A stretch of DNA of 64,000 bases, taken from NCBI GenBank assembly GCA_023255955.1, contig JAGDWD010000007.1:1-64000 (forward strand). The letters run 5' to 3'. The stretch is from Desulfurococcales archaeon. Its GTDB lineage: Archaea > Thermoproteota > Thermoprotei_A > Sulfolobales > NBVN01. Made by a program: the position numbers and the translations under genes. The notes below the pieces were generated by a model, which was given only the letters and a program-made list of their open reading frames with translations, was not told the origin of the DNA and made no database searches. The number at the start of each line of letters is the position of its first letter. The stretch's first letter is position 1. Positions 433 through 19,321 of the stretch are shown one piece after another.

Positions 433-1038
433 ATGCTTAGAGCGTTCAAGAGGGCGTACCTCTCTCTGGTGAAGTTCCTGGAAGCGTCTATTAACCTCAT
501 ATCCGACTCTGAGCTAGACTCACTAGCAAACCTACTGGAGTCAGTGTATAGGGAGGGTAGGAAGGTCTTCGTCGTCGGTGTTGGGAGGTCGGGACTTGTC
601 GGCAGGGCATTTGCTATGAGGCTCATGCACCTCGGGTTCTCTGCTTACGTGGTTGGTGAGACCATAACACCGTCTGCTAGGGCTGGGGACGTGCTCATAG
701 CTATCTCAGGCTCCGGGAGGAGTGCGGCGGTAGTAGCTACTGCCGAGGTAGCGAAGAGTCTCGGTATGAAGGTGGTGGCACTCACCTCCTATCCAGACTC
801 TCCACTAGCTAAGCTAGCGGACATGGTGATAACAATACCTGGGAGAACTAAGGTAAGTCAGGAGGATAGGTGGGAGGTTAGGCAGCTCCTAGGACTCCAC
901 GAGCCGTTAGCACCTCTGGGAACGCAGTTCGAGCTGGTATCTCAGGTAGTGTTAGATTCCATGATATCGGAGCTTATGTATAGGTTAGGGATAGACGAGG
1001 AGGATATGAAGGAACAGCACGCTAATGTCGAAGCCTGA
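433..1038 (+). CDS. hxlB: 6-phospho-3-hexuloisomerase
   Basis: This is a 201-residue single-SIS-domain protein, the usual size for 6-phospho-3-hexuloisomerase, which interconverts 3-hexulose 6-phosphate and fructose 6-phosphate. In archaea without an oxidative pentose phosphate route this reaction supplies ribulose 5-phosphate through the reverse ribulose monophosphate pathway. The SIS fold is seen in VGVGRSGLVGRAF (about residues 48-60) and the sugar-phosphate serine loop ISGSGRS (about 91-97). The partner synthase HxlA is not in the window. The end overlaps the next gene by 14 bases, so the two are probably co-transcribed from the TATA box just upstream. Confidence 0.9.
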   Translation: MLRAFKRAYLSLVKFLEASINLISDSELDSLANLLESVYREGRKVFVVGVGRSGLVGRAFAMRLMHLGFSAYVVGETITPSARAGDVLIAISGSGRSAAVVATAEVAKSLGMKVVALTSYPDSPLAKLADMVITIPGRTKVSQEDRWEVRQLLGLHEPLAPLGTQFELVSQVVLDSMISELMYRLGIDEEDMKEQHANVEA

Positions 1039-16171: not shown

Positions 16172-16389
16172 CTTTAGCGATCCTAAACTTAAGTTACTTT
16201 GCAGTTGAGTGTGTTTCTATGGATAAAGAGGTTAATTACTAGGGAGTTTGAAACATATTCTAATTTTAAGAATCAGCAGTACTAACTTATTCGTTTTGTT
16301 AGCTGAAATATTTTTAGTAATGTGATAGACCGATTACGTAACTAGCTATCTTTATTAGTTTATCTCGGTACTGCATCTTGGTCACTGCC

Positions 16390-18207
16390 ATGGGAGGGTT
16401 CATCTTTATAAGGTCTTTAAGGGATGCTAACGTAGTTCCTTTAGTTGAGATTACTGTTAGGAGAATGGAGTTCCGAGGGAGGGATTGTAGCGGTATTGCC
16501 TGGATAAGTAGTGAGGGCCTGAAAGTAGTTAAAGATTCGTGTCCTATCTCCAGTCTATTTCATAAGTACAATCTAGGAGGTATTTCAGCTACTGTAGCTC
16601 TAGGTCACACTAGGTACTCCACACACGGGAAAGCCGATCCCAGGAACGCACACCCACATCTAGATTGTAAAGGGTTCGTAGCTGTAGTAGGGGATGGTGC
16701 TTTAAGGAATTATGAGGAGCTTCAGCTAGAGTTGGTAGAGCGAGGTCATAAGCTAGTATCGAAGTCAGACTTCGAGTTAGTGTCTCACATGGTGGAGGAA
16801 TTTATTGATAGGGGGTTGAGCTACGTTAAGGCTTTCACAGAAGCTGTGCGGAGGACTAGGGGGCTCATATCGATTCTAGCATTATTTAGAGATGGTACGG
16901 CAGTAGCATATACGTCTCACCAACCGATCTACGTGGGGTTAAGCGAGGATTTTATCACTATTTCATCAACGATGTCCGGGCTCTACGGAAACTCGAAGAG
17001 CTTCACAAAGATTGATGGTGGTGAAGTAGTTATCGTAGCTAGCGACGGTTCCGTTTCGTTTTTAGATCTGCAGGGAAGGACAGCACTTAAGTCTTTCTCA
17101 GCATATAGCTTAGAGGAATATTTAGTAGCGACGGATGGTTACCCGCACCACATGCTCCGCGAAATTTATGAGGTGCCTTACAGTATTTTAAGGACTGCCT
17201 CCGCTATCCAGGCAAAGTACTTAGAGCTCGCTTCAAAGATAATTCTTAGAAGTAACAGGGTTTTCGTAGTAGCCAACGGGACAAGTCTTCACGCAGGTAT
17301 GGTCTTCTCGTACTACCTTTCTGAGCTAGCTAATATTGTGCCGGTAGTTGTCAGCGCATCAGAGTTCCTCCTGTACTACCTCGATAACATCGGTGTTGGG
17401 GACTCTGTAATTGCTGTCAGCCAGTCCGGAGAGACCTCCGAAGTTGTGAGATCAGCTTACGAGGCTAGACTCAGAGGGGCTACAGTCATAGGTGCTACTA
17501 ACAACATCAACTCCAGATTAACGAGGTTCTCAAATCTATACCTTCCGATAGCCGCAGGTCCCGAGCTAGCAGTCCCAGCAACTAAGACATTCGCGTCAAC
17601 TCTGATACTCATGTACGTTCTCGCTAGGTCCGTCTCATCTATGGCTAGTTCAACTAGTTCTAAAGTCCTGGACGAGGTTTGGAACGAGGTAGAGAAAGTG
17701 CATGTGGAGCTCAGTAGCAACCTAGGTAGGGTAGATAATGAAGCTAGGGAAGCGTCAAAGGTTATTGTAAATTGCTCTAGTGGTTATGTGGTTTCAAGAG
17801 GGATAACATACCCTCTAGCATTAGAGGGAGCTCTGAAGATCAAGGAATCGGCATATGTTCATGCTGAAGGTGTTGAGGGTGGAGAGCTGAGACATGGCCC
17901 GATCTCAATACTCGATAAGAACATGTTCGTGGTGTTTATAGAGCCTCTAGAGCGAGCAGCAGCTGAGGATACGCTGAAGATGGTAGAGGAAGTTCAGAGC
18001 TATGAAAGCCCGGTAGTTCTCATCTCACATAGTTCTAAAGTAGTAAGAGGCTTAGAGACCGTGATCAACGTCCCAATGATTGGGAGGTACTTCACGCCCA
18101 TCAGTATAGCAATATCTCTTCAACTCCTAGCTTACTGGATAGCTAGGTATAGAGGAGTTAACGTAGATCAGCCGAGGAGGTTAGCTAAGGTAGTGAAAGT
18201 AGAGTGA
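16390..18207 (+). CDS. glmS: GlmS-type glucosamine-6-phosphate synthase with degenerate glutaminase domain
   Basis: The protein has the GlmS layout: N-terminal Ntn-hydrolase domain (about 1-220) and two SIS domains. The synthase part is intact (ESAYVHAEGVEGGELRHGP and the C-terminal DQPRRLAKVVKVE). The glutaminase part is not. GlmS normally begins Met-Cys-Gly, with the cysteine as nucleophile; here the ATG at 16390 is followed by Gly-Gly (MGGFIF). The oxyanion-loop HNG is replaced by GDG (near 16690-16698), while GHTRYSTHG and SDFE remain. Glutamine hydrolysis is therefore unlikely; it may use free ammonia or an external donor. A TTG at 16378 gives four extra residues and does not restore a cysteine. 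Confidence 0.88.
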   Translation: MGGFIFIRSLRDANVVPLVEITVRRMEFRGRDCSGIAWISSEGLKVVKDSCPISSLFHKYNLGGISATVALGHTRYSTHGKADPRNAHPHLDCKGFVAVVGDGALRNYEELQLELVERGHKLVSKSDFELVSHMVEEFIDRGLSYVKAFTEAVRRTRGLISILALFRDGTAVAYTSHQPIYVGLSEDFITISSTMSGLYGNSKSFTKIDGGEVVIVASDGSVSFLDLQGRTALKSFSAYSLEEYLVATDGYPHHMLREIYEVPYSILRTASAIQAKYLELASKIILRSNRVFVVANGTSLHAGMVFSYYLSELANIVPVVVSASEFLLYYLDNIGVGDSVIAVSQSGETSEVVRSAYEARLRGATVIGATNNINSRLTRFSNLYLPIAAGPELAVPATKTFASTLILMYVLARSVSSMASSTSSKVLDEVWNEVEKVHVELSSNLGRVDNEAREASKVIVNCSSGYVVSRGITYPLALEGALKIKESAYVHAEGVEGGELRHGPISILDKNMFVVFIEPLERAAAEDTLKMVEEVQSYESPVVLISHSSKVVRGLETVINVPMIGRYFTPISIAISLQLLAYWIARYRGVNVDQPRRLAKVVKVE

Positions 18208-18265: not shown

Positions 18266-19321
18266 GTGACACTCGTGAGGCAAGCTAGAGGGGGTATACA
18301 CAAAGTAGTAGTAACGCTACTAATAGTTGCTATGGCAGTATCCGGGATACGGGTTTTACCTAGTAGTGTTCTCCTAGCTACCTCCCCCAGTAAAGTAGTC
18401 TACACAGATCCGCAAGGTGATTCATTCGGCCCCGGAGCTTATGTCTTCAACCCTTCCCTCGCTGAAAGCTACAAACCGGAGTACTTCGACCTAACAAGTT
18501 TTTCTGTAGATATAGATAGCAGTGTAGTCAGATTCTCCATAGGTCTAACCGCGATAGCTAACCCACTAAATTCACCGCTAGGATTCTCCCCTCAGGTAGT
18601 TCACATATACATCGTTGGGGAGTGTAGTACTAGAAGATCTGATACGCTAGGTCTTAATGTCCGGCTGAGGTCGGCAGATTCCTGGTGTGCGAGCGTAGTT
18701 ATCACCCCAAACCTAGGTAACTACAACTCTAGGATAGTGTTAGCTAGTGGAACTGAGGTGGAGTTGAAGAAAATCTACGTAGCTGAAAATAATACGATCG
18801 TAGCTGAGGTCCCATCTGAGCATCTTCTAGATATTATAGAAGGGAATGTAGAGAGGTGGAGATTCTTTGTAGCAGTTACAGCATACGACCCCAAGTCCCC
18901 CGATGGACTTATTGATGTAGGCTTGCCGGGCTCTAATGCCTCAGTTATATATAACGGAACAGAGCTCCCCAATCCAGCACTTCTACCTAGGATCCTAGAT
19001 ATCCTTACCGACACAGTAGAAGATCAGTATGCTATGTTGGGTGCCTACCCACTCCTACGTGGGGATATAGCCACGGTCGCTGCCTACCCATATCTAGAGA
19101 AGCTACTGCTACCGTTCGAGTTTGTGACTAGGATCGAGTTCATAACTACAACTAGTTTCGCAACTACCACATATCTTAAGGTATACGAGGTACCTGGGGT
19201 AACAACTACTACCACTCAATATGTTCAAGTACCTAAGTACGGTGTGGAGCTATATGTCCTTGCGCTAGTATGCGTAGCTCTAGTCGTGGTTTTAGCCTAC
19301 GGACTGAGGAAATTCAAGTAA
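18266..19321 (+). CDS. Secreted, C-terminally anchored surface protein (glucodextranase C-terminal-like domain)
   Basis: The 351-residue protein has an N-terminal signal segment (about 13-38), a beta-rich domain starting DPQGDSFGPGAYVFNP, which resembles the SLH-like C-terminal module of glucodextranases, a threonine-rich stalk (about 295-325, runs of TTT) and a C-terminal membrane helix followed by RKFK. It is therefore probably anchored to the membrane with its sugar-binding-like domain outside, perhaps in the S-layer. Several N-x-S/T sequons (NNT, NGT, NAS) could be glycosylated by AglB. The start is GTG or nearby. Confidence 0.7.
   Translation: MTLVRQARGGIHKVVVTLLIVAMAVSGIRVLPSSVLLATSPSKVVYTDPQGDSFGPGAYVFNPSLAESYKPEYFDLTSFSVDIDSSVVRFSIGLTAIANPLNSPLGFSPQVVHIYIVGECSTRRSDTLGLNVRLRSADSWCASVVITPNLGNYNSRIVLASGTEVELKKIYVAENNTIVAEVPSEHLLDIIEGNVERWRFFVAVTAYDPKSPDGLIDVGLPGSNASVIYNGTELPNPALLPRILDILTDTVEDQYAMLGAYPLLRGDIATVAAYPYLEKLLLPFEFVTRIEFITTTSFATTTYLKVYEVPGVTTTTTQYVQVPKYGVELYVLALVCVALVVVLAYGLRKFK

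Follow-up and report, generated by a model that had tools for sequence, protein, structure and literature searches.

What can a glucosamine-6-phosphate (GlcN6P) synthase still do once the residue on which its glutaminase depends has gone? The question was raised by a gene in the window, the whole stretch of 64,000 nucleotides analysed here, which encodes a GlmS-like protein of 605 amino acids. The glutaminase domain of GlmS has a single catalytic residue, Cys1, and isomerisation is carried out by Glu488, His504 and Lys603 (PMC9272926). The N-terminus of the present protein reads M-G-G-F, the ATG at 16390 being followed directly by GGA GGG. The stop-to-stop frame opens 16 codons upstream of this ATG and holds no alternative start giving Cys-Gly; the only upstream candidate in it is a TTG at 16378, which is not followed by Cys-Gly. 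A TATA-like CTTTATTAG lies where it would fit a transcription start just upstream of the ATG. The protein belongs to a clade of GlmS paralogues of the Gly-Gly (GG) type, named GlmS-b here, and the features of its gene are as follows.

16350..16358, + strand: putative TATA-like CTTTATTAG, 31-40 bases before the ATG, as read from the sequence
16390..18207 (stop included), + strand: GlmS-b coding sequence, 605 aa, with a pseudo-glutaminase domain and a two-SIS synthase/isomerase half; orthologues share the start
16390..16398, + strand: start codon and Gly-Gly (ATG GGA GGG), with Gly at the GlmS Cys1 position, as in 86/86 orthologues
16390..17079, + strand: pseudo-glutaminase domain of class II amidotransferase fold, residues 1 to ~230; Pfam GATase_6 and GATase_7 (weak), model pLDDT mostly >90
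16606..16629, + strand: HTRYSTHG (canonical HTRWATHG), residues 73-80; Trp74 changed to Tyr, Arg73 retained (E. coli numbering)
16690..16698, + strand: GDG for the oxyanion-hole HNG, residues 101-103; Asn98 changed to Asp, as in 85/86
16768..16770, + strand: Asp127, equivalent to the glutamine-binding residue Asp123, retained in all members
17116..18204, + strand: synthase/isomerase half with two SIS domains, residues 243 to 605; Foldseek TM (target) ~0.85-0.88 against solved GlmS isomerase domains
17824..17847, + strand: E479, K483 and E486, equivalents of catalytic E481, K485 and E488, invariant in 86/86
17893..17895, + strand: H502, equivalent of His504, invariant in 86/86
18187..18189, + strand: K600, equivalent of Lys603, retained in the 85/85 members with sequence reaching there

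Two other genes of the window were noted. A Glucodextran_C-type surface protein is encoded directly downstream of GlmS-b (18266-19321, + strand), and this gene adjoins GlmS-b in five genomes of the genus, the present one and four others in which the homologue is the next gene. A stand-alone SIS-domain protein of 201 amino acids is encoded at 433-1038 (+ strand), right after the end of the large-subunit rRNA.

The absence of Cys after the initiator Met and the GDG in place of HNG had been pointed out by the sequence-only reading; both were confirmed, and Tyr was found at Trp74 besides. Alignment with relatives showed that the loss is common to all 86 distinct orthologues: Cys1 is Gly in every one, N98 is replaced by Asp in 85 and by Glu in one, and W74 is Tyr or Phe throughout, while all complete canonical GlmS in the comparison keep Cys, Asn and Trp there. 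ATG, GTG or TTG stands directly before Gly-Gly in all of the first 14 orthologues. With such changes shared by the clade, the loss of glutaminase activity that had been proposed for the protein is nearly certain. The old pocket is nevertheless preserved in part, Arg73, Gly99 and Asp123 being invariant across the 86 proteins. The synthase/isomerase half, described earlier as well kept, does hold the equivalents of E481, K485, E488, H504 and K603; the first four of these, together with S303, S347, Q348, S349 and T352, are retained in 86/86 GlmS-b, and K603 in every one whose sequence reaches it. Mean column identity in the glutaminase half is lower for GlmS-b than for canonical GlmS (0.39 vs 0.52), whereas the synthase halves are equally conserved (0.53 vs 0.51). 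Changes were also found at the connection between the two halves, where W74 is replaced by Tyr or Phe, C300 by Asn, Thr or Asp, and A602 and R599 are variable; these four we take to be residues lining the ammonia channel. Near the sugar site most GlmS-b carry the clade-specific changes A400 to Pro, T355 to Val and C300 to Asn.

A profile made from 14 orthologues splits the GlmS proteins of the order into GlmS-b, scoring at least 650 bits, and canonical GlmS, scoring at most 545 bits, and with it GlmS-b was found in 79 of the order's 214 genomes. Outside the order it occurs in the Thermoproteota families f35, f22, f31, f58 and f65. Score alone cannot separate the types there, since the GlmS-b of f31, recognised by their Gly-Gly start, reach only 540-570 bits and one Cys-type protein reaches 588 bits. 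Unusually high scores with the GlmS-b profile (530-588 bits) were seen for Cys-type GlmS of other Thermoproteota (L191 in genome G412, and L193-L204), and of the Cys-type proteins these may stand nearest to the ancestor of GlmS-b. In a tree of 84 proteins, produced by a quick search with the trait columns left in the alignment, a single branch with SH-aLRT 100 divides the GG-type from the Cys-type, so that one ancient loss of Cys1 is the simplest account. Multiple independent losses were rejected, as the tree needs one change only. The open-access literature searched yielded nothing relevant on a Cys-less GlmS of archaea or a GlcN6P deaminase of crenarchaea. A search of plasmids matched only genes annotated as glmS, with identity below 60%, a comparison at the level of annotation.

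The search for a second, normal GlmS, which the sequence-only reading had suggested, was successful. A complete canonical copy with MCGI, HTRWATHG and HNG is present in the same genome at G000:C5:93431-95215, on a contig other than that of GlmS-b, and it rules out the Cys-less protein as the sole GlmS of the organism. Most GlmS-b genomes likewise carry a canonical copy. In one genome (G142) a short decayed fragment of a canonical GlmS was observed (L178:4919-5116); GlmS-b is kept there and no intact canonical copy is present.

The commonest neighbour of GlmS-b encodes NagA (GlcNAc-6-phosphate deacetylase), found at 23 of the 74 loci with flanks. In 21 of these genomes, from 12 genera of the order, nagA and GlmS-b are no more than 300 bp apart, and the two genes may be co-oriented, divergent or convergent; given the number of genera and the varying orientations, the linkage does not reflect inherited synteny alone. 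In family f35, nagA adjoins GlmS-b in all seven sampled genomes, and in genomes G207-G209 the GlmS-b gene sits between nagA and ABC-transporter genes. No nagA was found near canonical glmS at any of 18 loci. Among the 214 genomes of the order, 56 have both genes, 12 nagA only, 23 GlmS-b only and 123 neither; by genus the figures are 23, 4, 3 and 48 (Fisher p ~1e-12, ignoring phylogeny). Some GlmS-b/nagA clusters contain AnmK (anhydro-N-acetylmuramic acid kinase) and a SIS_2 protein, and AnmK is also seen with a PBP4B-like protein. At L104, L107, L065 and L012, in other genomes, the GlmS-b/nagA neighbourhoods include AnmK and a beta-lactamase-like protein, which suggests salvage of bacterial peptidoglycan sugars.

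In the organism itself nagA is on a contig other than that of GlmS-b and so does not adjoin it. It is part of a cluster on contig C5 (L179:2475-7948) encoding a BadF-type GlcNAc-kinase-like protein, a GH84 beta-N-acetylglucosaminidase, a SIS_2 protein, a PBP4B/beta-lactamase-like protein and NagA itself, the last scoring 315.7 bits against a cut-off of 225.65. No deaminase gene was found in this cluster, and the GlmS-b on contig C1 is the genome's best candidate for that step. NagB (PF01182, Glucosamine_iso) was found in none of the 214 genomes of the order, the present one included, and none of the order's genomes had GlmD or NagB-II above the cut-off.

Some genomes with nagA and without GlmS-b hold two-SIS proteins that have no glutaminase domain (DISPLACEMENT). 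These keep the equivalents of E481, K485, E488, H504 and K603 (G194, G190, G037 and G027). In G194, which has no GlmS-b, nagA and a pair of ABC-transporter ATPase genes directly flank the gene for a two-SIS protein of 324 amino acids (L211:5663-7722); this protein is NagB-II-like, scoring 158 bits, which is under the cut-off, and is a candidate SIS-only GlcN6P deaminase. In G190 the gene for a 320-aa two-SIS protein adjoins ABC-transporter ATPase genes. It thus looks like a SIS-only deaminase takes the place of GlmS-b in an equivalent gene set. The idea that the two-SIS-only proteins are truncated GlmS-b was rejected, as their similarity to GlmS-b does not exceed that to canonical GlmS, which makes them look like independent replacements.

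From these observations GlmS-b is likely to be a GlcN6P deaminase of amino-sugar catabolism that has kept a conserved pseudo-glutaminase domain. The residue losses and retentions, the single origin and the nagA linkage are read from the sequences; which way the reaction runs, and on what substrate, we infer. An ancient GlmS paralogue would have lost its glutaminase activity and taken on the deaminase function, converting GlcN6P and H2O to fructose-6-phosphate and NH3 after NagA in the breakdown of GlcNAc-containing polymers, and the retained N-terminal domain would serve as a pseudoenzyme module of structural or regulatory use. The reaction Fru6P + NH4+ <-> GlcN6P is reversible with a Keq of ~0.2 M (PMC11593775), so that breakdown is favoured at ordinary ammonia levels, and a GlmS without glutaminase would be expected to yield Fru6P and ammonia except at very high ammonium. 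The nagA linkage and the absence of NagB also point to catabolism. Against this stand the separation of nagA from GlmS-b in the organism's own genome and the 23 GlmS-b genomes without a recognisable nagA; another nagA-linked protein, the SIS_2 protein, could be the deaminase instead.

A bolder proposal, which we regard as rather doubtful, is that the dead glutaminase domain became a sensor. With a ligand such as glutamine or glutamate bound in the old pocket, it would set the activity or direction of the synthase half, and a biosynthetic enzyme would have become a nitrogen-regulated catabolic deaminase across the phylum. The retained R73, G99 and D123 and the fixed Gly1 and Asp98 are the pocket residues on which the proposal is based.

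The role first proposed for the protein, synthesis of GlcN6P from free ammonia or ammonia supplied by a separate glutaminase, is probably the wrong way round, amino-sugar breakdown being most likely instead. As a general explanation it is unlikely, although the catalytic residues of the synthase are intact, the deaminase reaction is reversible (PMC11593775), and two relatives, G142 and G149 (97-99% complete), carry GlmS-b but lack an intact canonical copy. Counting against it as the physiological role are the canonical GlmS of the same genome, the catabolic linkage to nagA, the absence of NagB, a Keq that favours deamination and the alterations of W74, C300, A602 and R599 at the glutaminase-synthase connection. 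GlmS is moreover reported to be the one member of its subfamily that cannot use ammonia (PMC9272926), which speaks against ammonia-fed synthesis. An ammonia route is possible in G142 and G149, where GlmS-b could be anabolic; together with the 23 genomes without nagA, these two mean that in some lineages the role may be biosynthetic or reversible.

GlmS-b could also act on another phosphorylated amino sugar, or be a plain phosphosugar isomerase, within the same salvage gene sets. The replacements of A400, T355 and C300 near the sugar site in most GlmS-b, the AnmK and SIS_2 protein of some clusters and the 23 genomes without nagA are in keeping with such a substrate, but all catalytic residues for Fru6P and GlcN6P are retained and the main partner, nagA, yields GlcN6P, which makes this explanation quite improbable. 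Still less can be said for a pseudoenzyme partner that regulates canonical GlmS by joining it in mixed oligomers. A canonical copy is present in most GlmS-b genomes and the dead pocket is conserved, with R73, G99 and D123 kept; yet conservation of the synthase active site matches that of canonical GlmS (0.53 vs 0.51), which a pure regulator would not need, and GlmS-b persists in genomes without intact canonical GlmS, so that we consider this very improbable. A sequencing or assembly error at 16390-16395, named earlier as what might overturn the observation, or a wrongly chosen start is practically excluded, as 86 orthologues from independent assemblies have the same residues, all 14 orthologues checked have a start codon directly before Gly-Gly, and nothing was found in its favour.

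The deaminase reading has consequences beyond this locus. Automatic annotation likely names GlmS-b as GlmS, since it passes the TIGR01135 cut-off, and yet the use of glutamine by the known mechanism is impossible for it. GlmS-b is a conserved clade widespread in Thermoproteota, which makes the observation more interesting than when it was first reported. If it is a true deaminase, it would provide the step that GlcNAc catabolism has been missing in many thermophilic archaea without NagB, and a biosynthetic amidotransferase would have become a catabolic enzyme by inactivation of its nitrogen-supply domain, with that domain still under selection.

Among known systems, GlmS-b is close to GlmS/GFAT (TIGR01135, EC 2.6.1.16). 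It shares the full-length two-domain architecture (GATase_6/7 and two SIS) and the synthase catalytic residues, is 32-37% identical in the synthase half, and its 440.5 bits exceed the equivalog cut-off of 418.05. It differs in lacking Cys1, the oxyanion-hole Asn and Trp74, in its less conserved glutaminase half (0.39 vs 0.52), and in the predicted arrangement of the domains. AlphaFold2 models of GlmS-b (pLDDT 93.5, pTM 0.93) and the canonical copy (pLDDT 92.1, pTM 0.88) were built from one shared set of 27 sequences. For the canonical model, TM (query) was 0.83-0.90 to chains of human GFAT-1 and wild-type E. coli GlmS but only 0.52-0.55 to the E. coli GlmS C1A mutant (PDB 3OOJ), and the best TM of GlmS-b to whole chains was 0.57. 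The modelling thus predicts that the pseudo-glutaminase domain is placed differently from that of GlmS, a single-chain prediction of moderate weight because GlmS is oligomeric and the placement varies between crystals. The C1A mutant 3OOJ was the top Foldseek match of GlmS-b and represents a laboratory loss of the same nucleophile, one engineered change there against concerted changes in a natural clade here.

With NagB-II (Shewanella type, NF046059) and archaeal GlmD (NF041128), GlmS-b shares a homologous two-SIS half, the proposed reaction and position in the pathway, and the genomic link to amino-sugar catabolism through nagA (12 genera within 300 bp, and 7/7 in f35). Both of these deaminases are without a glutaminase domain, whereas GlmS-b keeps an intact pseudo-glutaminase fold; it scores only 121.3 bits against a cut-off of 430 and 87.7 bits against 580, respectively, and in its synthase half it resembles GlmS more than it does the solved SIS deaminases. 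NagB/GNPDA (PF01182) belongs to an unrelated fold family, and the proposed reaction is the only likeness between it and GlmS-b.
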